Below the pieces are notes generated by a model. The model was not told the DNA's origin and ran no database searches. It saw nothing but the letters and a program-made list of their open reading frames with translations. The position numbers were made by a program, and so were the translations under genes. A stretch of 64,000 bases of DNA from Saccharophagus degradans 2-40 (GTDB lineage Bacteria; Pseudomonadota; Gammaproteobacteria; Pseudomonadales; Cellvibrionaceae): assembly GCF_000013665.1 (NCBI RefSeq), contig NC_007912.1:1908501-1972500 (forward strand), written 5' to 3'. Below, in pieces: positions 45,113 through 55,938 of this stretch; the first letter of the stretch is position 1, and each line of letters begins with the position of its first letter.

Positions 45113-45808
45113 ATGACTTTAACACCAGCACAGCAGGCAGCCGCTAAACAAACAAGAACAGTCGTTCACGGGGCCGGTGAGCCTACCCATGCCGTTATTT
45201 GGTTACACGGTTTGGGAGCCTCATCGGATGATTATCCGCCTGTAATCCCATATTTGGGGTTGTCTAATTCTCGCACCATAAGATTTGTATTCCCTCAAGC
45301 CCCTGAGCGGCCCATTACAATTAACGGCGGCATGGTCATGCCTGGCTGGTACGACATAAAGGGAATGGATTTGGTCGATAAAGAAGATTTAGAGGGGATG
45401 AGCGAGTCCCGTGCGACTTTAGAGCGTTTAATTCAGGAGCAGGTGGACAAGGGGGTACCTACGAGCAACATTGTTATCGCTGGCTTCTCGCAGGGGGGAG
45501 CGGTTGCTTATTACACCGGTTTACGCTACTCGCAAAAACTGGCTGGGATTATGGCGCTATCTACCTATATGCCTTTCGCCGGTACTGCAGCGAGTGAGCA
45601 CTCAGGTGTGAATGTGCAAACACCCATTATGGCAATGCATGGCCTGCACGATGGTGTGGTGCCGCTAAGCATCGGCAAGCAAAGCGCCGACGCAGTAAAA
45701 GCCTTAGGTTATACCGTAGAGTGGAAAGGGTATGCCATGGAGCACAATGTAATCCCTGAGCAGCTTACTGATATTGGTGTTTGGCTGAATAGGGTGTTTG
45801 AGGGGTAG
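45113..45808 (+). CDS. Carboxylesterase (phospholipase/carboxylesterase family)
   Basis: 231 residues. Alpha/beta-hydrolase with WLHGLGASSDDYPP (oxyanion loop), FPQAPERPITINGG and the nucleophile GFSQGGA (Ser126); HGLHDGVVP gives the aspartate and MEHNVIPEQL the histidine. This is the carboxylesterase type of Pseudomonas EstB, which hydrolyses short acyl esters and lysophospholipids in the cytoplasm. The ATG has GAGAG upstream. A short GCCAAC/GTTGGC hairpin follows the stop at 45814-45828. Confidence 0.92.
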   Translation: MTLTPAQQAAAKQTRTVVHGAGEPTHAVIWLHGLGASSDDYPPVIPYLGLSNSRTIRFVFPQAPERPITINGGMVMPGWYDIKGMDLVDKEDLEGMSESRATLERLIQEQVDKGVPTSNIVIAGFSQGGAVAYYTGLRYSQKLAGIMALSTYMPFAGTAASEHSGVNVQTPIMAMHGLHDGVVPLSIGKQSADAVKALGYTVEWKGYAMEHNVIPEQLTDIGVWLNRVFEG

Positions 45809-45920
45809 TTGTCGCCAACTTCGTTGGCTTACTGTATATGCACAATAGGGCTTCTAGTTGGAAGTCTCTTTTACGTGTATTGCTTATTTGGTCTTAGCAT
45901 CTCTCTTGACGGCTATTTTT

Positions 45921-46877
45921 CTAGGCGTCCATATCATTCGGTTTTAAGGTGCTTCTTATCCCCTCATAGGTTTCCAGCTCTCTAATGCGCCGGCATATTG
46001 TTGGCCTAGATATGCCCAGTATTTTAGCTGCTTCGGTTTGGTTTCCTTTGGTTAGCTGTAATGTTCTGCGTGTTTTTTCAAGGGCCATTATATCTTTGGC
46101 TCTTTCGAGTGAAATGTTGGGGTTGAATAATGCAGTAGTAAGGGTTTCCGTTGTGTGAAATGGGCGCGTTCCTGGAAGCGCTGCAAGTATTTGCGGAGTG
46201 TAATATTTATTTTCTGAGTATATTAGGCCCAACAGGAATATTGTAACGTTGAATGATGTAACTATTGTTGCGTTCACTTGTAAGCCTAGTTGCATAAGAA
46301 ATGCAATTATTAACGAAGATATTACAAATGGCCCAGAGCAAAATAGGAGTACTTTGCTACGGTGTCTAATTACATCTTCTTTGTGTAGAAAAGCACCATA
46401 ACTTAATAAAAGTAGCGTAAATATAACAGCACTAAACATCCCGCTTATATAAACAGAGTAAAAAGGGCCCGGTATGCGAGTTATTGAGTATGCTATTTTA
46501 GTTGTGCCTAGTATTGCTAAATTGGGCATAGCCACAAGTATGGAGAGGCCGAGCGCAATGAGTAATGGCAAATAAAAATTTGATAGCTTATCAACTGTTC
46601 TTAATGCTACACCCAGAATTGAGTATATGGAAAACGCATAGAACACGTGGTAGGCAACTACCAAGTTTAAGGTGGCCTTGGAGTTAAGCTGAAAGCAAAA
46701 AAGTGTTAGTTCGCAGATGTTTAGCCCAAGTAGGGCTAGGAACAATATTAAAAAGAGATTATCAGAAAGGAATCTTTGCGATTCCCCTCTCGAGTGTGAA
46801 AATGGTCGTTTCCAAAGGATTATTAGCTTAACAAATATTGCTAATATGCTAGGCAAAGCGTAAAGCAATCTAAACAT
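45921..46877 (-). CDS. Membrane-embedded Fis-type transcriptional regulator (second paralogue)
   Basis: 318 residues. The first 220 residues hold about seven hydrophobic helices with the look of the 7TM N-terminal regions of some histidine kinases (PGPFYSVYISGMFSA, then RHRSKVLLFCSGPFVI). There is no kinase. Residues 265-300 form a Fis/NtrC-type helix-turn-helix: QLTKGNQTEAAKILGISRPT followed by ICRRIRELE. I infer a one-component membrane receptor that binds DNA directly. It is paralogous to the gene at 46929, 51 bases upstream on the same strand, and belongs to an operon with a KAS III-like gene. The ATG lies directly after AAAAGG, unusually close. Confidence 0.8.
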   Translation of the reverse strand: MFRLLYALPSILAIFVKLIILWKRPFSHSRGESQRFLSDNLFLILFLALLGLNICELTLFCFQLNSKATLNLVVAYHVFYAFSIYSILGVALRTVDKLSNFYLPLLIALGLSILVAMPNLAILGTTKIAYSITRIPGPFYSVYISGMFSAVIFTLLLLSYGAFLHKEDVIRHRSKVLLFCSGPFVISSLIIAFLMQLGLQVNATIVTSFNVTIFLLGLIYSENKYYTPQILAALPGTRPFHTTETLTTALFNPNISLERAKDIMALEKTRRTLQLTKGNQTEAAKILGISRPTICRRIRELETYEGIRSTLKPNDMDA

Positions 46878-46928
46878 CCTTTTAAATAGTTACCGCTTCA
46901 GGGTGTGCGGGGTCGTAAGCCTAGGGTA

Positions 46929-47834
46929 TTAAAGCTTACGTGCTTTTGTATATTGGCTCTCAATTAGCTTGATTCTTCTGCAGATCGTGGGTCTAGAGAC
47001 ACCAAGAATTCGTGCAGCTTCGCTTTGATTTCCTCTTGTTAGTTCTAGCGTGTATCTAGTCTTTTCTATATCCATCAGTTCTTTTGCCTTTTCTAGAGGC
47101 ATGTTTGGGTCGAACAAGGCTTGAGTCAGGATTCTGGCGCTGTCGTTATATTTGGTGCCTGGTAGTGAGGAAAGAAGCCCGTATATATGGTACTTGCCCT
47201 CTAGATACAATAAGCCAAAAAGTAAAATATTAATGGAGAACGATATAACAACAGTGGCGTTTATTTGAAAGCCAAATTGCATTAAGGCAACGATTATAAA
47301 AAGGCTTACAAATGATGGGGTTAGGCATATTAATAAAACCGAGCATTTATTTTTTATTTCTTTAGATTTGCTTCTAAGGGCGCCGTGTATTAGCAAGCCA
47401 ATTGATGCACTAAATGGAACAAGTAGGGCAAGTTGGACTACGAAATAGTATGGGCCTTGAATCCTTGTATAGGAATATCCAATACTTTTTGTTCCTTCTA
47501 TTGCGAGCCCTGGTATTGCGATAAAAATCGCCATTAAACAACCAAAGGTTGCAAGCGTGCGAATAGGAAAGACCTGTCGAGTAATCGACAGAGTAATCCC
47601 TAACACGGAAAGAATGGAAAAAAGGCCGAATATATAATGCGCCATAACAAGGATTGTTGCGCCACTCTCTTTAAGGTTGAGTGTAAACAACAACATCTCA
47701 CTAATGTTCAGAGCCAGTAGTGAAATGAAAACGGCTAAAAAAGCTTGGTTCGTTATCAGCAGGCTTTGTCTGGCTCGCCATAATAGAACTAGTTTTATAG
47801 CAATAGCCGAGATACTTGGGATGGCGTATAGCAA
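46929..47834 (-). CDS. Membrane-embedded Fis-type transcriptional regulator (first paralogue)
   Basis: 301 residues from a TTG start. The architecture matches the next gene: about seven hydrophobic helices (residues 1-225), a short linker with ALFDPNMPLEKAKELMDIEK, and a Fis-type helix-turn-helix (ELTRGNQSEAARILGVSRPT followed by ICRRIKLIE). The two paralogues agree especially in the linker and DNA-binding end. The start is uncertain: AGAAGG lies directly before an ATT codon four codons upstream of the TTG, the position equivalent to the partner's ATG. It begins 30 bases after the KAS III stop. Confidence 0.8.
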   Translation of the reverse strand: MLYAIPSISAIAIKLVLLWRARQSLLITNQAFLAVFISLLALNISEMLLFTLNLKESGATILVMAHYIFGLFSILSVLGITLSITRQVFPIRTLATFGCLMAIFIAIPGLAIEGTKSIGYSYTRIQGPYYFVVQLALLVPFSASIGLLIHGALRSKSKEIKNKCSVLLICLTPSFVSLFIIVALMQFGFQINATVVISFSINILLFGLLYLEGKYHIYGLLSSLPGTKYNDSARILTQALFDPNMPLEKAKELMDIEKTRYTLELTRGNQSEAARILGVSRPTICRRIKLIESQYTKARKL

Positions 47835-47864
47835 AAAAGTAATCCTTCTAAAAGGTGTTAACTA

Positions 47865-48863
47865 TTAAAATATTAATCCGCTTTGGCACACGGAGAGGCC
47901 GCTGCCAGTTCCCATAATCAAGATTTTTTCACCTCGTTGGGGGCGGTTTAAGAACATATTTACAGGTATTGAGGCGGAGGTCAAATTCCCGTAATTATCA
48001 TAGGTAATAGGCGCCTTGTTGATGGGTTGGTGCGCCAAACTGGCCATTCCTTGGTGCGGTTTAGCTCCAGTTTGGTGACAAAATAGTTTGTCAATACTTT
48101 CTGGCTGCCAACCCAAAAGTTCATAGGTACTGTCTATGAACATTTTATGAAGCCGTAATATTTGTACTGTAATCTCGCGCATTAGCATCTGACCTTGCGT
48201 GCCACTATCCGTATGTTTGTAATAGCATAGGTTTGTATGGCTACCATCAGACATAAAGTTCATTTTTTGGAAACCCGAATGTTCATTACCACGCTGAATA
48301 ATCATTGCCCCTCCAGCGTCACCTACTGTTAGCCCTCCAAGTCTTTTGCGGAACTCTTCTTTACTTGATAGCTTTTTAAGTTGATCAATTGCTTCGTAGG
48401 TTAGGTTACTTTGCTTCTCGCCGGTGCACACAAGTACGGTTTGGGCGCTGTGATTTGCAATAAATGCATCTGCTATAGAAATGCCATTTAAAAAACCATG
48501 ACAAGCATTCGTAACATCCAGAACTATTGCTGATGTGGCCCCAAGCTCGGCCTGTATTCTATGGGCCGTTGCTGGCTCTTGCCAATCTCTTTCGATGCCA
48601 CAATAAAGGATTAAGTCAATTTCGTGAGCTTGTACGTTTGCATCTCTTAGTGCTACTTCAGAGGCCATGATTGCCATGTCTGACGCGAGTGTTTTTTCAT
48701 CTGCCATTCTGCGCTCTATGATGCCAATCTTGTTTGAGATATAATTCTCTGGTGTGCCAAAGCGCGTGCTTGCTATTTCCGCCATTAACTCATCTGACGT
48801 CACACGTTGCTTTGGTAAATAAGCGCCAATGCCAGCAATTTTAGATATGCAATTCATTTCCAT
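47865..48863 (-). CDS. KAS III-like 3-oxoacyl synthase (non-FabH)
   Basis: 332 residues. The thiolase fold of ketoacyl synthase III is complete, with catalytic Cys121 (TNACHGFLNG), His263 (FCHQTGAKPHQ) and Asn293 (YGNLTSASIP). The flanks differ from housekeeping FabH, which has HQAN.RI after the histidine and GNTSAASIP at the asparagine. It is therefore probably a specialised enzyme joining an acyl-CoA or acyl-ACP to another acyl or malonyl unit, like those making signals, resorcinols or ketones. ATG with GGAG upstream. It heads an operon with two membrane regulators and is divergent from a 74-residue protein gene. Confidence 0.88.
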   Translation of the reverse strand: MEMNCISKIAGIGAYLPKQRVTSDELMAEIASTRFGTPENYISNKIGIIERRMADEKTLASDMAIMASEVALRDANVQAHEIDLILYCGIERDWQEPATAHRIQAELGATSAIVLDVTNACHGFLNGISIADAFIANHSAQTVLVCTGEKQSNLTYEAIDQLKKLSSKEEFRKRLGGLTVGDAGGAMIIQRGNEHSGFQKMNFMSDGSHTNLCYYKHTDSGTQGQMLMREITVQILRLHKMFIDSTYELLGWQPESIDKLFCHQTGAKPHQGMASLAHQPINKAPITYDNYGNLTSASIPVNMFLNRPQRGEKILIMGTGSGLSVCQSGLIF

Positions 48864-48912
48864 TTTGTTTCTCCAGTTTTTTGTTTAAAAGTAAAAAATA
48901 ATGTTGTTTTGG

Positions 48913-48934
48913 GGTGTGTCACGAATGAAACACC
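48913..48934. promoter_or_regulatory. Inverted-repeat operator candidate between the KAS III operon and the small-protein gene
   Basis: GGTGTGTCA-CGAA-TGAAACACC: 9-bp arms with one mismatch and a 4-base spacer. A further half-site GGTGT lies at 48986-48990. On the minus strand the repeat overlaps a possible -35 (GTGACA, 48922-48917) of the KAS III operon. Suited to a dimeric Fis-type regulator such as the two encoded next door; the link is inference. Confidence 0.5.
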
Positions 48935-48974
48935 TGCTCACAAAGCCGTAAAACCATGTATCAAAAAAAAACAG

Positions 48975-49002
48975 TTGATTTCATGGGTGTCAGCAATAGG
49001 AT
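48975..49002 (+). promoter_or_regulatory. Possible promoter of the 74-residue protein gene
   Basis: TTGATT (48975-48980), 16-base spacer, TAGGAT (48997-49002). The GGTGT half-site lies inside the spacer. Moderate match only. Confidence 0.35.
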
Positions 49003-49038
49003 CAGCTGAAAATAATTAACTCATTGAGAGAGGTTGTT

Positions 49039-49263
49039 ATGGCTAATCAAACTGCAGTACAGGACATCAATATCAATCAACCAAGTTACCTGCAAGTGGC
49101 ACCGTTAATTCGGTTGACTAAAAATGACATTTCTATCCTAGAACGGTTAGAACAGGACGGTGTATACGACCTTGCGGGTCACCCAGATAGAGCTTCTACA
49201 ATCGAATCTATTATTTATGATCTGCTCGATGCAGTTCGTGGCACTGAAAGTAAATCTGCTTAG
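49039..49263 (+). CDS. Small protein, unknown, divergent from the KAS III operon
   Basis: 74 residues from ATG 49039, chosen because GAGAGAGG lies 5 bases upstream; the frame extends to a TTG at 49024. There is no signal peptide and no cysteine. The centre reads LQVAPLIRLTKNDISILERL and the end DRASTIESIIYDLLDAVRG, i.e. amphipathic helices in a small soluble protein. I recognise no family. A hairpin at 49327-49352 follows. Its strong ribosome-binding site suggests it is well expressed. Confidence 0.7.
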   Translation: MANQTAVQDININQPSYLQVAPLIRLTKNDISILERLEQDGVYDLAGHPDRASTIESIIYDLLDAVRGTESKSA

Positions 49264-49326
49264 TAAAAATATTTGGCGCGTAAATATTTAAAAAGAATTT
49301 GGCGACAGATTTTTAATTTGATTTCA

Positions 49327-50853: not shown

Positions 50854-51579
50854 TTAAAGAGAAACAATAATGCTGCTTAAGTTGTCTGGTGCACCAGCAT
50901 CTAAGGCGCCAGTTAAAAAGCTTTGGTTTATTTTATCAATATTATTTGCATCCACGCGCAAGGCGAGCTGTTCGTCGCTATACACCTTTGTTAAGCCATC
51001 GGTGCATAGCAAAAAGCGATCTTCTTCATATATATAGTCACATATATAATCTACATATGGGCTTTCATCTACGCCAATTGCTTGGGTAAGGGTATTGGCG
51101 GCAGGTGTGTTTTTTATTTCTTCTAAGCTAAGTATGCCTTCTGCTAAAAGTTCTTCGGCCTCTGTATGGTCGCGGGTGATGAGCGTGAAGGTGTCATCCC
51201 TCAATAGGTAGCAGCGGCTATCACCACTCCAAAAGCAATGGTAGCGGTCGTTTTCTAATACAAGTACCACTACGGTACTTCCTATTACGCTTTCGGTACT
51301 AATGCTATTGGCATACCTATAAAGCTCTGTGTTTGCTGCTTGAATTACAGATGGTATGGCATCCACAAGAGCTTGCCCTTGGTAATTAGCAGCCGCTTGA
51401 TATAAATGGCTTATTACGCACCGACTAGCGTAGTCGCCAGCGTCGTGGCCGCCCATGCCGTCTGCTACAGCCCATATCCCCGATTTGGGCAGTGCAATTA
51501 GAGCGTCTTCGTTTTTCTCTCTTACGCAGCCTGTGTGTGTCATGCTGCTGGTGGCTATACCCACATTTAAGTTTTGCAT
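50854..51579 (-). CDS. pppA: Type VI secretion PP2C-type protein phosphatase
   Basis: 241 residues. The PP2C metal-binding motifs are present: CVREKNEDAL (ED), WAVADGMGGHDAGDYA (DGMGGH), SGDSRCYLL and LLCTDGLTKV, ending in DNLSSIIV. In Pseudomonas aeruginosa PppA reverses PpkA phosphorylation of Fha1 to turn the type VI system off; the presence of PpkA and TagH here supports the same job. It is last in the minus-strand operon, 16 bases after tagF. Confidence 0.93.
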   Translation of the reverse strand: MQNLNVGIATSSMTHTGCVREKNEDALIALPKSGIWAVADGMGGHDAGDYASRCVISHLYQAAANYQGQALVDAIPSVIQAANTELYRYANSISTESVIGSTVVVLVLENDRYHCFWSGDSRCYLLRDDTFTLITRDHTEAEELLAEGILSLEEIKNTPAANTLTQAIGVDESPYVDYICDYIYEEDRFLLCTDGLTKVYSDEQLALRVDANNIDKINQSFLTGALDAGAPDNLSSIIVSL

Positions 51580-51595
51580 TAGTTGGCAATTATCC

Positions 51596-52372
51596 TTAAT
51601 TTTTATTTTCTAATACAGATTCCAGGTTCCATCCCCACTGTTGCCAGTTGCCATCTAGCATGGCTGCAAATTGGCCTGCATCGGGTAGGCCACTGTTTAC
51701 CAACAGTGTAGGTGCAATATGCTCTGAGCCCTGTGTCCACCATATGCCGTAGGCACCGTAAATTCGCTGGTAGGCTTTGTGTAATAGGTTTAAAGGCAGT
51801 TGTTGGTCGCTGTTACTAGGTGGTGTTTCGACTACAAAATTTTCTGCGTAGGAATGTTGAGCGTGCAGTGTTTCAAAATTGCTAAACTCAGGTAACTGTA
51901 GCGAAGGTAGCATTTCGAAGTTGCCGATAAAATTAGAGTAGCTAGTATGTTCTTCTAAAGCTAAAAGTGCAGCGCTCTCCAGTTGGCTAAACCACGCATC
52001 GCCATGTAAGTAAGCAGACCAAGGTGTGTGGTTATATATTTGTACTAAGGTAAGCGGGAAGTAGCGGCCGACTTCATCCACACTTGGGATCATTATGCCC
52101 GCCACGCTTTGCGGGTGTGTAATAGTGGGCATAAGTGAAAAGCGCCAAACAGGGCTGGTTAAATAAAAATCTAACCAGGTGTCGCCAAGCTGTTCTTTAC
52201 TTACACCCAAACACCCTTGCAGCCAAGCATGCCAAACATCTGTAAATGCAGCAGGTAAAAAGTGCGAAATAAAATCACCTTGTTGCGGCAGTTTGCCAAA
52301 CAGCCCGCAGGTATCTGTCTGCGGTGCTGGATTAGCTGTGCTGTTTGTTTGGAAATCACCAACAGCTTCCAT
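51596..52372 (-). CDS. tagF: Type VI secretion accessory protein TagF
   Basis: 258 residues. The N-terminal TagF domain is diagnosed by CGLFGKLPQQGDFISHFLP, FYLTSPVWRFSLMP and IMIPSVDEVGRYFPLTL. TagF represses type VI activity after translation, by binding FHA protein in P. aeruginosa. In some species TagF is fused to PppA; here they are separate, adjacent genes. Begins 20 bases after tssM. Confidence 0.92.
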   Translation of the reverse strand: MEAVGDFQTNSTANPAPQTDTCGLFGKLPQQGDFISHFLPAAFTDVWHAWLQGCLGVSKEQLGDTWLDFYLTSPVWRFSLMPTITHPQSVAGIMIPSVDEVGRYFPLTLVQIYNHTPWSAYLHGDAWFSQLESAALLALEEHTSYSNFIGNFEMLPSLQLPEFSNFETLHAQHSYAENFVVETPPSNSDQQLPLNLLHKAYQRIYGAYGIWWTQGSEHIAPTLLVNSGLPDAGQFAAMLDGNWQQWGWNLESVLENKN

Positions 52373-52392
52373 TAATTGATCTCTCCAAGTAT

Positions 52393-55300
52393 TTACAGCT
52401 GTGTGGGCAAGCTAAACTTTTGCACATCTTTATTATGGTAAGGGTTGTCGGTACTTGCGGGCTGAATGATATAAGCCGAAGCAATTCCATCCAGTTCAAA
52501 AGTAACCAATAATCCGTCGGATTCTTTCTTGCGTTCTATCTTGCTGTGTTCGTCTAGCAGTCTAAACCAGCTCCACTCGCCTTCGGTGCGAGCGCTAATT
52601 GGGGTGCCTTTACTGGACAGGCTAAAAACAATTTTAGATAGGTCTGTTTTTGCGCCAGGCCATAGTACATTTACATTGCGCACTGGGCCGTGATTGTAGG
52701 CGATAGTGGTACCTGCTGTTTCTAGTAAAAAGCCACTGGCAATATGGTCGAGTGTGTGCGGCTTCATCGAGAATGCAACTTCTGGTTCGCCGCTTTTATC
52801 CGAGAAGTAGGCATTTTTAATGTTTTGGGCTTGATAAAAAAGTTCTAGGCTGTTTGTGCTAAGGCCTATATTTTTCTTCCAGCGCCACGGGTGTTTAGAT
52901 GTGTCTACAAAGGGTTCTATATATTCCACAAAGTAGGAATCTAATATGCCGGCGGGGCCAAAAAATTTTGTGAAGTCTGCTAGTTTAACATCACGCTTAC
53001 TTTTTGGGTTTAAGGGGTATTTATCTTTAATCGCACGATTATAAAAACTCACAACCTCTGTTTGCCAAATATTATTCATATGGCTTTGGGTAGCTGCTGC
53101 GGTAACCTGCGCGGTATCTCTTGCAATAGATGAGAACCAAGTTTCAATTTGAGGTGGTGCATCGGATATAGCGCGCTGTACAAATACAACAGGGCTGCTG
53201 CCACCTTTCCATTCTTTACTAGCGTCAAATGCGGCTTGTTTGGTGTTTTCAGAATAAGCTAAGTTTTGAAAGTAGTCGTCTAAATTAATTAAAGCTTGCT
53301 GTAACTGCAGTAAAGGCAGGCCTTCTTCAGTATTTATATAGCTGTTTAGGTCTTCGAAATGCTCGGTTACGTCGAAGCCGGGGAGTTTTATATTACTAAG
53401 CCCCGCAGATTTTGGCACTAACCGTTCGAGTCTACCTTTTTGACTGCTGGAAAATTCTTCAGCTAATTGGTTAGCGGAATCTTTCATGTTGTCGCTAATA
53501 ACAGGCGCTTCGCTTAGTGCGGTATGTTTGCGAATTTGAACAAGCAGTTTAACCAGCGGTTGGTCAGAGCTGGCAAGCATTTGCACCACAGATTGGCCTC
53601 GGTTAACGGTGCCAAACGATTGAATAGCTACATCGTTTAGGTATTCATCCCAGCGCGCAATATACTCGTTAAAGTAATATTGGTTTACTCTGCTGCTTAT
53701 TTCTTTTATGCGCTCTTCAGTAAGCGCCTCTTCTTGTTTGTCGCCATAAATCCATTGTTCATCGGCTAGGCGTTGCGATAATTTAATGTTCTCTAAGTTA
53801 AACCCTCGATGAAACCCAGAATAGGTGAATAATTCTGGAATGCCATTTTCAAGAGCCTTTCCACTTTTTCTATAAAACATTGCATCTGCTTTTTTGCCTA
53901 ATACGCTTTTGATCGAAAACTCTTCTGGATGAAGATCCATGTAATCATTTTTTAAGCGTCGGTATACGCGTAGATCAAGCGGGGTTTTTATAAGTATGTT
54001 ACGGGCCATTTCGACTTTAGTGTCGTCGATAGGAAACGGGGATACTTTTTCGCTTAGCGCAGTTTTAAGGTGGCTATTTAACTCACTTAATAAAACTTGC
54101 TTGTTTTGATTAGGTAGTTGGCGCTCCCATAGAATGTTTACCCATAAGGTAAAACTGTCTGTATCCATTTTGCTGGAGTGGTAGGGCATTAAGTAGAACT
54201 TAAGGGCTTCGTACAGTCGCTCATCGTCATTTTTAGCAAGCTCAAGCTGTTCGCCTAGCATTTCTTCTAAGTGCTGCATAAAAAACGATTCGAGCGCTTT
54301 TTTATAGGTGGTTTCGGCTTGTTCACCTAACTTGTTACCTTGGTATAAACCAAAACCCTGTTTAAAGGTATATTGGCTATCTTTAAGCATATAGCCTGTG
54401 GGTAAGTCTCGCAGTAGGTTTAGTTTTAAGGCGAGGTTGTGCCAGTCTCGCACTGCAGTATTTTGTTTTTTATCAATTTTAGAATACTTTTCTAGCTGGT
54501 CTTCAATTTCGTGAATGTAATCCTTATTTAAGGTTTTACTGTGCGACCAGGCGATGGCCAAGCAAGAAAAAGCAGCAATAGCACAGCCTGTTAGGCCAGT
54601 GTATATCCAGCGGTAACGAGCGCGCATTTTGTCGTTTAGTGTTGCTAGGTTGGCCTCAGCAAAGATAACTTTTTTAAGTAAGTTATTAACGAAATAGGTT
54701 TTAGGTTGAATGCCAATTATGTCAATTGGGGGCGCGCATTGTTCTGGGGGTAAAATACCTGTTACCCAGCGCGAAGCCATATTGCTCTGCGTGCTACTAA
54801 GCAGGTATAAGCCGCGCCACATAATAGGGGTTTCAAATTGATTGGGGGTAAAAATAGGGGCTACAAACTTAAGAATCTCAGTTTTAAGTGCGCGCATCTG
54901 ACGAGGGAACTCGTAGATTAATGCACGCTTTTGTGGGCTGTGCTCATTATTTAGCCGAGATAGCACACGGTCTTCAAGGCGTTGTAGTAGTAAATCAAAT
55001 TCATTGTTAAACACTTCTTCAGTAGCAGAAATATCGCCCGCTTTGAACTGGCTGTAGGTAAACCCCCATGCTTGTTCTCTGTCTTGCGCTTCTAAATCAG
55101 AGAAAAAGCTGTTAAAGCCTGCAACCATGTCGAGTTTGCTTAATACCAAATACACCGGTATTTTCATGTTTAAATGATTGTTGAGCTCTTGTACGCGCTG
55201 CTTTATTGCCGTTGCTTGTAAAGCTTTTTGAGTGGGCGTCTTTTGCAGAATATCCTGTATGCTTACAGTAACAATTATGCCGTTTAAGGGTTGCTTGGGT

Positions 55301-55938
55301 CTCGCTTTTTTAAGGCGCGCTAAAAAGCCAAGCCACGCTTCACTGTCTTTAGTTTGTGGGTTGTCTTGCGTGGTGTACCTGCCGGCGGTGTCAATTAATA
55401 TGGCTTCCTCGGTAAACCACCAGTCGCAGTAGCGTGTGCCGCCTTCGCCTTGAATGGGGGCGTCGCCAAGTTTATTTTGCAGCGGGAAGTTAAGGCCAGA
55501 ATTCTTTAACGCTGTGGTTTTTCCTGAGCCTGGGGCGCCGATTACCATATACCATGGCAGCTTATACAGTTTATTGTCTTTGCCAAAGCCACTACCTTGT
55601 AGCAAGCCAAGGCTTTTTTGAAGGTTGGATTCTAAAATTTGTTCATCGGCCGATGGTACCTTCTTGGTTTTGCTAGCAGCTGGCTTGGCATCTTCCGCAA
55701 TAGCATTTGCCAATTTATCTGTGGCTTGGTTTGTTCTGGTTCTCTTACGTAAATTATTTAAGCCCCAAAGTATAAGGGCAACAAATACCATGCTTAATCT
55801 TACCCACTCGGCGCTAAGTGGTTTGTACTCTGCAATTGCTATAAGTGGCCCTATGTACCAAATAATCAAGCACAGCAAAAGTACGCCCAAAAGAGAAAGA
55901 AACCAGGGCTGGGTAAATTGTTGGAAAAAACGTTTCAA
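52393..55938 (-). CDS. tssM: Type VI secretion inner-membrane protein TssM (IcmF)
   Basis: 1181 residues, TTG start with GGGAG upstream. Two N-terminal transmembrane helices (about 12-65), a cytoplasmic NTPase-like domain with Walker A GAPGSGKTTALKNSG and DTAGRYTTQD, a third helix near 450, then the large periplasmic IcmF region and a C-terminal beta domain. TssM spans the inner membrane and with TssL and TssJ forms the membrane complex. Walker A is intact, which is variable in the family. Length is normal. It begins 11 bases after tssL. Confidence 0.96.
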   Translation of the reverse strand: MKRFFQQFTQPWFLSLLGVLLLCLIIWYIGPLIAIAEYKPLSAEWVRLSMVFVALILWGLNNLRKRTRTNQATDKLANAIAEDAKPAASKTKKVPSADEQILESNLQKSLGLLQGSGFGKDNKLYKLPWYMVIGAPGSGKTTALKNSGLNFPLQNKLGDAPIQGEGGTRYCDWWFTEEAILIDTAGRYTTQDNPQTKDSEAWLGFLARLKKARPKQPLNGIIVTVSIQDILQKTPTQKALQATAIKQRVQELNNHLNMKIPVYLVLSKLDMVAGFNSFFSDLEAQDREQAWGFTYSQFKAGDISATEEVFNNEFDLLLQRLEDRVLSRLNNEHSPQKRALIYEFPRQMRALKTEILKFVAPIFTPNQFETPIMWRGLYLLSSTQSNMASRWVTGILPPEQCAPPIDIIGIQPKTYFVNNLLKKVIFAEANLATLNDKMRARYRWIYTGLTGCAIAAFSCLAIAWSHSKTLNKDYIHEIEDQLEKYSKIDKKQNTAVRDWHNLALKLNLLRDLPTGYMLKDSQYTFKQGFGLYQGNKLGEQAETTYKKALESFFMQHLEEMLGEQLELAKNDDERLYEALKFYLMPYHSSKMDTDSFTLWVNILWERQLPNQNKQVLLSELNSHLKTALSEKVSPFPIDDTKVEMARNILIKTPLDLRVYRRLKNDYMDLHPEEFSIKSVLGKKADAMFYRKSGKALENGIPELFTYSGFHRGFNLENIKLSQRLADEQWIYGDKQEEALTEERIKEISSRVNQYYFNEYIARWDEYLNDVAIQSFGTVNRGQSVVQMLASSDQPLVKLLVQIRKHTALSEAPVISDNMKDSANQLAEEFSSSQKGRLERLVPKSAGLSNIKLPGFDVTEHFEDLNSYINTEEGLPLLQLQQALINLDDYFQNLAYSENTKQAAFDASKEWKGGSSPVVFVQRAISDAPPQIETWFSSIARDTAQVTAAATQSHMNNIWQTEVVSFYNRAIKDKYPLNPKSKRDVKLADFTKFFGPAGILDSYFVEYIEPFVDTSKHPWRWKKNIGLSTNSLELFYQAQNIKNAYFSDKSGEPEVAFSMKPHTLDHIASGFLLETAGTTIAYNHGPVRNVNVLWPGAKTDLSKIVFSLSSKGTPISARTEGEWSWFRLLDEHSKIERKKESDGLLVTFELDGIASAYIIQPASTDNPYHNKDVQKFSLPTQL

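Follow-up and report, generated by a model that had tools for sequence, protein, structure and literature searches.

A KAS III-like condensing enzyme linked to seven-helix membrane proteins with a Fis helix-turn-helix: a candidate synthase and receptor cassette in Saccharophagus degradans and relatives

In the CqsA/CqsS and LqsA/LqsS systems the gene for a synthase lies beside the gene for a multi-helix membrane receptor. The enzyme belongs to the alpha-oxoamine synthases, and the receptor is a histidine kinase that acts through a phosphorelay. Here we describe a cassette with a similar layout but different parts, from Saccharophagus degradans 2-40. It lies in a stretch of 64,000 nucleotides (positions 1,908,501 to 1,972,500 of contig NC_007912.1), which we call the window; the host genome is a single contig of 5,057,531 bases. 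The synthase of the cassette resembles beta-ketoacyl synthase III (KAS III; KAS below). Its membrane proteins, two in number, have a predicted seven-transmembrane (7TM) part joined to a Fis-type DNA-binding helix-turn-helix (HTH), with no kinase domain found; we refer to them as 7TM-Fis.

Two enzymes are instructive for the comparison. OleA of Xanthomonas is a thiolase that condenses acyl-CoA molecules head to head. According to extracts of PMC7064751, it initiates the synthesis of membrane hydrocarbons, a glutamate is essential for the condensation, and a Glu-Pro pair is present in all but two of the OleA proteins of one alignment. In Photorhabdus, extracts of PMC4578411 state that the ketosynthase PpyS requires E105, the equivalent of OleA Glu117 (the E105A variant yields no photopyrone), and that photopyrone is a signal made of two joined acyl moieties and read by the LuxR-like protein PluR. 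A base-glutamate ketosynthase, a hydrophobic signal and a receptor are what the cassette may have in common with PpyS/PluR, the glutamates being equated by way of OleA Glu117. The receptors differ: PluR is LuxR-like, whereas the candidate receptor of the cassette is predicted to span the membrane seven times and carries a Fis HTH.

The reading that we prefer, with little more than even confidence, is that KAS makes a hydrophobic acyl product and that 7TM-Fis is the one-component membrane receptor for that product and the autoregulator of the cassette. A search of open PubMed Central, judged by title and start of abstract (preprints were outside its scope), gave no literature on this gene pair among the matches listed.

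The condensing enzyme

All three genes lie on the minus strand. KAS (47865..48863, 332 residues, PF08545 and PF08541 above cut-off) is followed by the KAS-proximal regulator (46929..47834, 301 residues, TTG start) and by its tandem paralogue, the KAS-distal regulator (45921..46877, 318 residues); the two regulators are 44.7% identical (tblastn). An initial annotation, made from the letters and open reading frames (ORFs) alone, had described just this order of a KAS III-like gene and two 7TM paralogues with a C-terminal Fis HTH, and the ORFs, Pfam domains and identity bear it out. Its intergenic gaps of 30 and 51 bases stand for the genes as annotated, but the second is probably 60 bases. A TTG at 46868 is more likely the true start of the distal gene, which would then encode 315 residues, because this codon is placed 8 bases past AAGGA, like the TTG of the paralogue, and because the resulting N-terminus, LLYALPSI, matches LLYAIPSI of the paralogue.

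The best match of KAS in the Protein Data Bank (PDB) is, narrowly, OleA (3row, 118.8 bits, 2.7e-33). The Cys-His-Asn triad that the initial annotation had named is invariant across a 21-member KAS alignment: Cys121 (codon 48501..48503), His263 (48075..48077) and Asn293 (47985..47987). Among 42 family members Cys121 is present in all, His263 in 41 (one gap) and Asn293 in 40 (two gaps). Glu96 (codon 48576..48578) and Pro97 align with the catalytic Glu117 and the following Pro of OleA, and the preceding Arg-Asp is common to both. Glu96-Pro97 is found in 42/42 members and the glutamate also in all four OleA-like sequences that we scored, while E. coli FabH has Phe at this position and the other KAS III of the host genome has Leu. 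Since Glu96 matches the glutamate needed in both OleA and PpyS, KAS is expected, as far as sequence can tell, to be an enzyme that condenses acyl with acyl groups.

The family is distinct from both OleA and FabH by score. A KAS-family profile gives E. coli FabH 152 bits and the OleA-like sequences 209-215, against 336-546 for full-length members. With the NCBIfam fabH model the window enzyme reaches 145.6 bits, below the cut-off of 292.1. The one other PF08541 protein of the host genome (G000:C1:790749, in locus L058; L and G numbers are our handles for loci and genomes) has 370 residues and is highly divergent.

The membrane-bound regulators

Both window regulators match HTH_8 above its cut-off of 22 bits (34.3 and 32.9 bits). 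The HTH occupies residues 262-289 of the proximal protein (46968..47051) and residues 271-300 of the distal one (45978..46067), and HTH_8 is found in 19/21 and 13/14 members of two 7TM-Fis alignments. Pfam searches at E<=1 returned neither a kinase domain nor an AAA+ sigma-54 domain in either protein. The initial annotation had proposed membrane regulators that bind DNA with no phosphorelay, and sequence and model do show a 7TM part joined directly to an HTH with no kinase domain.

In an AlphaFold model of the proximal regulator (mean predicted local distance difference test, pLDDT, 89.7) there are seven transmembrane helices with a TM4-TM5 hairpin, then linker helices and the HTH, so that the seven helices claimed for both copies are confirmed by modelling in one of them. 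The putative sensory part comprises residues 1-212 (47199..47834). A distant partner was modelled as well (mean pLDDT 78.9), and this second model likewise has seven transmembrane helices, the hairpin and the HTH; its alignment is a separate one but not wholly independent, 2 of its 14 rows (L042 and L047) being the same as L014 and L013 of the first. When the models were superposed on known structures with VIA-align, the predicted bundle fell on class C and class A G-protein-coupled receptors (GPCRs). The first model gave a best Z of 18.4 (3.1 A over 203 residues), with only GPCRs in the best 50 rows, and the second a best Z of 17.5 (3.6 A over 210 residues), with only GPCRs among the matches listed. 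No microbial rhodopsin or other 7TM fold was among the matches listed, where the second-stage alignment covered the first 1000 chains from Foldseek. The 7TM domain of these bacterial proteins is 4-16% identical to GPCRs in the listed VIA-align rows and, unlike a GPCR, is fused to a DNA-binding domain; a predicted fold in common implies neither common function nor common ancestry.

Since the number of helices is odd and the DNA-binding end must be cytoplasmic, the N-terminus is predicted to lie outside, as in GPCRs; the loop charges are too few for proof. Only Lys14 (TM1) and Glu46 (TM2) are invariant in all 21 sequences of the first 7TM-Fis alignment, and it is plausible that they form a polar site inside the bundle.

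Two described families share parts with these proteins. HisKA_7TM (PF16927), the N-terminal 7TM region of histidine kinases, matches 12/21 and 12/14 members of the two alignments at E<=0.01 and is above cut-off in the relatives L043, L032 and L031. In the cassette, however, the 7TM part is joined to a Fis HTH with no kinase, and of the window copies one scores 15.9 bits against a cut-off of 28.6 and the other is absent from the match list. NtrC-type sigma-54 activators have the same Fis-type C-terminal HTH, whereas the window proteins have no AAA+ match. Some distant partners are longer (469 and 540 residues in L050, 834 in L053, 851 in L120), and the L053 protein has weak matches, below cut-off, to the AAA+ and lid domains ahead of its HTH. 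This suggests that 7TM-Fis may have descended from a membrane-bound activator of the sigma-54 type after loss of the ATPase. In L013 (9379-10254) we noticed a 7TM partner whose C-terminus is no longer HTH-like.

Linkage across genomes and upstream DNA

The initial annotation had offered conserved linkage of KAS and 7TM-Fis as a check on its idea, and the linkage is kept in more than one genomic setting. Among 293 genomes of the same order, KAS relatives (E<=1e-40) occur in 5 and 7TM-Fis relatives (E<=1e-5) in 6. All five KAS genomes are within those six, the 7TM frame of the sixth being 246 residues long and free of an HTH, and 5/6 KAS genes directly precede a 7TM-Fis gene.

For the class, one sample of 369 genomes was searched with a profile of each family. 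We chose the KAS threshold (about 335 bits) after the fact, where the scores jump from about 215 to 336 bits, with at most five candidates scored per genome. The 7TM profile matched 347/369 genomes, nearly all through the HTH alone, so we counted only matches spanning most of the 7TM part, all of them at least 120 bits, among at most six candidates per genome; a partial match in G584 (model positions 60-220, 35 bits), a genome with no KAS of this subfamily, was left out. Counted in this way, KAS is present in 7/369 genomes from four families, and full-length 7TM-Fis, among the matches listed, in the same seven. Each of the 11 KAS genes adjoins a 7TM-Fis gene; the two share a strand in ten cases and meet tail to tail in the remaining one. 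Four other genomes of the sample carry OleA-like enzymes (208-215 bits, assigned by score and by eye with no named profile) and show no full-length 7TM-Fis match, unlike the genomes of the cassette family. Chance neighbourhood is rejected by the co-occurrence and adjacency in the order and class samples. The cassette is rare: in a sample of 299 genomes of the phylum, KAS at E<=1e-75 was found in one, that of the window.

When named contigs were scanned with the KAS alignment, 32 loci came up: three in Exilibacterium, two in Pseudomaricurvus and the others in a Pseudohongiella metagenome-assembled genome (MAG), one 'Muproteobacteria' MAG, one Nitrospirae MAG and many MAGs labelled Pseudomonadales, proteobacterial or gammaproteobacterial. 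In 27/32 the KAS is followed on its own strand by an open 7TM gene (in L049 the KAS itself is broken). As for the other five, the contig ends early in L037, L051 and L054, L056 has remnants and L046 has no 7TM gene nearby. The KAS frames of L049 and L056 are in pieces, through decay or assembly error. These loci are not all additional to the counted genomes: L042 and L047 belong to G003, the KAS in L046 is that of G047, and L027 and L052 seem to correspond to G473 and G333. Moreover, the Pseudohongiella-type loci have one common setting by eye among the gene tables listed, and there are fewer settings than loci.

The direction of the pair was counted over 37 pairs, that is, loci with both genes, and the count is conditional on the presence of both. 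Excluded were L037, L051 and L054 (contig ends), L023/L046 (no adjacent 7TM gene), L049 and L056 (broken KAS frame), L091 (7TM gene running past the locus) and the duplicates L042, L047, L061, L062, L064 and L065; L041 was retained despite an early KAS stop (292 residues). In 36/37 pairs the 7TM gene is downstream on the same strand, with a spacing of -25 to 476 bases when the first start codon is taken mechanically, and in seven its frame opens within the end of the KAS gene. The KAS and 7TM trees correlate with r 0.907, where the best of 5000 permutations reached 0.316, and with 0.861 over the 22 pairs outside a large orthologous group.

A genome may have up to three KAS copies, and next to most KAS genes there is just one 7TM gene, though tandems recur (L055, L026). 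The suggestion of the initial annotation that the two paralogues give opposite or graded outputs is unsupported. In L055 (4066-10025) two divergent KAS genes each have a 7TM gene, one of which is followed by a second, of 227 residues and with no HTH. In L026 (3018-4932), from Exilibacterium, two more tandem 7TM-Fis genes lie about 3 kb from a KAS/7TM pair. Solo 7TM-Fis genes in KAS-bearing genomes are found in L015, L017, L018, L026, L121 and L122; in L017 and L018, from two related genomes, a conserved ORF of 63 residues (MKIRGFDDVV...) is about 0.8 kb away from the solo gene.

Upstream DNA was compared in the Pseudohongiella-type group. There, the palindrome TGTAGGA-N5-TCCTACA (up to two mismatches) has 16 matches in 17 loci of 217.5 kb in all, 11 upstream of KAS, 5 in the gap between KAS and the 7TM gene and none elsewhere, with at least one in 12/17 loci. 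The loci are related to each other, and the independent part of this result is the five gap matches together with the absence elsewhere. In six whole genomes the perfect palindrome occurs once in four, twice in one and never in one. The second copy in one genome (L112, 1501-1519; G688:C13:225480) is about 230 bases before an ORF of 204 residues. In the L031-L048 group the region about 157-237 bases upstream of KAS and the KAS-7TM gap hold the palindrome, perfect or nearly so, a dyad TTTCA-N4-TGAAA and a conserved GATAATG box. That dyad, chosen after looking, is perfect in 9/14 Pseudohongiella-type loci and before one of the two L055 genes, and in none of 21 other genes.

In the window there is an imperfect dyad, GGTGTTTCA-TTCG-TGACACACC (48913..48934, no strand assigned, 50-71 bases upstream of KAS), a weak candidate for an operator. 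One mismatch separates it from TTTCA-N4-TGAAA, in a match that begins 67 bases upstream of KAS (uncorrected p 0.03 against resampled sequence); taken simply as a dyad it falls short of significance (p 0.32). The genome has no other copy of it, which means little, as the pattern searched was derived from the window dyad itself. A promoter scan of 45780-49300 gave 6 sigma-70-like sites where 8.0 were expected, and so no support. Taken as candidate operators, the palindromes and dyads would fit autoregulation of the cassette.

Some neighbouring features are outside the conserved unit. The divergent ORF of 74 residues on the plus strand (49039..49263, ATG start), which the initial annotation had listed beside the three genes, is rejected as a conserved partner: it was found in one of 58 related genomes, its own, and neither Pfam nor NCBIfam gives its product a match at E<=1. 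A defence system is rejected likewise, with no PADLOC match (E<=0.01) for KAS, the KAS-proximal regulator or the 74-residue protein; the sole match of the KAS-distal regulator is to an HTH-bearing model (E 0.0014). At window positions 50854 to 55938 and onward, inspection by eye suggests a type VI secretion cluster that starts about 2 kb from the unit, with phosphatase, TagF-like and IcmF/TssM-like genes.

A proposed one-component synthase and receptor system, and its alternatives

The preferred reading can be put as a sequence of steps. An acyl thioester would be loaded on Cys121 of KAS, an enzyme of the OleA/PpyS type, and Glu96 from the partner subunit would serve as the base for condensation with a second acyl thioester. 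The product would be a hydrophobic beta-keto compound or a derivative of one, which may enter the membrane and bind within the helices of the neighbouring 7TM protein. The cytoplasmic Fis HTH, as a dimer, would bind DNA at the promoter or promoters of the cassette, and binding of the ligand would alter transcription in one step, with no kinase or phosphorelay.

Several points weigh against this reading, or against parts of it. That KAS is of the OleA type is not sharply drawn by similarity, with Aquifex FabH (2ebd, 116.5 bits, 1.3e-32) a close second in the PDB search; a tree splits OleA and the family from FabH (97/96) with very long outgroup branches, and leaves OleA in a polytomy with the family, the two unseparated. 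The likeness to GPCRs is weak by Foldseek alone (best E 1.8e-3 and 1.6e-3 for the two models, query TM-score 0.31-0.50). The genes can also come apart: G047 (L023/L046) has KAS and 7TM-Fis on separate contigs. The correlation of the trees can be explained by co-inheritance alone, and when partners are re-paired within genomes, 348/1152 pairings equal or beat the true one. Because the trees correlate but within-genome re-pairing does not favour the true partners, the pair is inherited as a unit, and recognition of one partner by the other one-to-one is unsupported by the trees. The palindrome was picked from the aligned upstream regions, so the upstream matches are no independent test of it; 5/17 loci have none, and no wider regulon appeared in the six genomes, where 4 forward-strand palindromes with one mismatch compare with 7 matches to controls that have no more than one mismatch. 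One would also expect an enzyme to be linked to its regulator if that regulator senses something else. The class of the product, its identity with the ligand, the DNA target and the direction of regulation are all things that we infer, as is any choice between a signal passing between cells and a report on the lipids of the cell itself.

What else might the cassette do? If KAS were simply the FabH of the organism and its neighbours were there by chance, it would initiate ordinary fatty acid synthesis. Two points favour such a role: the enzyme does belong to the KAS III superfamily, and the genome has a single other PF08541 protein, which is divergent. Yet KAS is absent from 288/293 genomes of the order at E<=1e-40, may be present in three copies in one genome, has Glu where E. 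coli FabH has Phe, and is set apart from FabH by both the NCBIfam and the family-profile scores. On the rarity, the glutamate and the two sets of scores we reject a housekeeping FabH as extremely improbable, in agreement with the initial annotation that KAS departs from FabH. An alternative that we take more seriously, while judging it rather unlikely, is lipid homeostasis: KAS would make a membrane lipid or hydrocarbon, and 7TM-Fis would sense the membrane or a lipid pool and tune KAS, with no signal between cells. The operon-like pairing and the palindromes confined to the cassette fit this equally well, and OleA itself starts membrane hydrocarbon synthesis, according to the extracts cited above. 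A FadL-family transporter lies downstream of the cassette in L050 and L053; L053 also has an acyl-CoA dehydrogenase and a thiolase on its opposite flank, and L120 is similar by eye. This setting speaks for the preferred reading too. For purely local feedback, however, the six loci with extra 7TM-Fis genes away from KAS would be superfluous, and among the gene tables listed no other lipid-modifying gene is, by eye, constant in the unit.

It is also conceivable, but in our view quite unlikely, that 7TM-Fis senses an unrelated external cue, such as a nutrient or a molecule of another species, and that KAS is the output, making for instance an acyl compound with an antibiotic-like or protective role. 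Small metabolites can be ligands of bacterial 7TM sensors, as pyruvate is of BtsS (extract of PMC10653868), and the 7TM proteins diverge more than the enzymes (17-46% against 33-62% identity of relatives to the window proteins). Against this, full-length 7TM-Fis, among the matches listed, is confined to genomes with KAS in both samples (7/7 in the class and 5/6 in the order, where the sixth is the frame free of an HTH). This confinement is itself weak evidence, as a dedicated regulator of KAS would look the same.

The unit noticed in the initial annotation is real and conserved, and its kind was well surmised there. We regard as established the gene pair, the co-occurrence of its members and the catalytic signature of the enzyme; the interpretation offered in that annotation is partly supported. 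To go beyond synthase, receptor and autoregulation, one might speculate that the cassette is a new class of signalling, between cells or within one, in which an OleA/PpyS-type ketosynthase is combined with a GPCR-like lipid-binding receptor that is directly a transcription factor, with several channels per cell and solo receptors listening in. We offer this tentatively and consider it less likely than not. Exilibacterium and G434 each have three KAS/7TM pairs.

If the product of KAS is the ligand of 7TM-Fis, lipid-type signalling in Gram-negative bacteria would take an unusually simple form here, with one enzyme and a single membrane protein in which receptor and transcription factor are combined. 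It would provide a membrane receptor for ketosynthase-derived signals, which in PpyS/PluR are otherwise read by a LuxR-like protein, and a tractable bacterial system in which a GPCR-like fold has a directly readable output. For Teredinibacter turnerae, a relative, no LuxI, LuxM or LuxS homologue is reported in an extract of PMC2699552. The cassette might matter for bacteria that, like it, are without the usual signal synthases.

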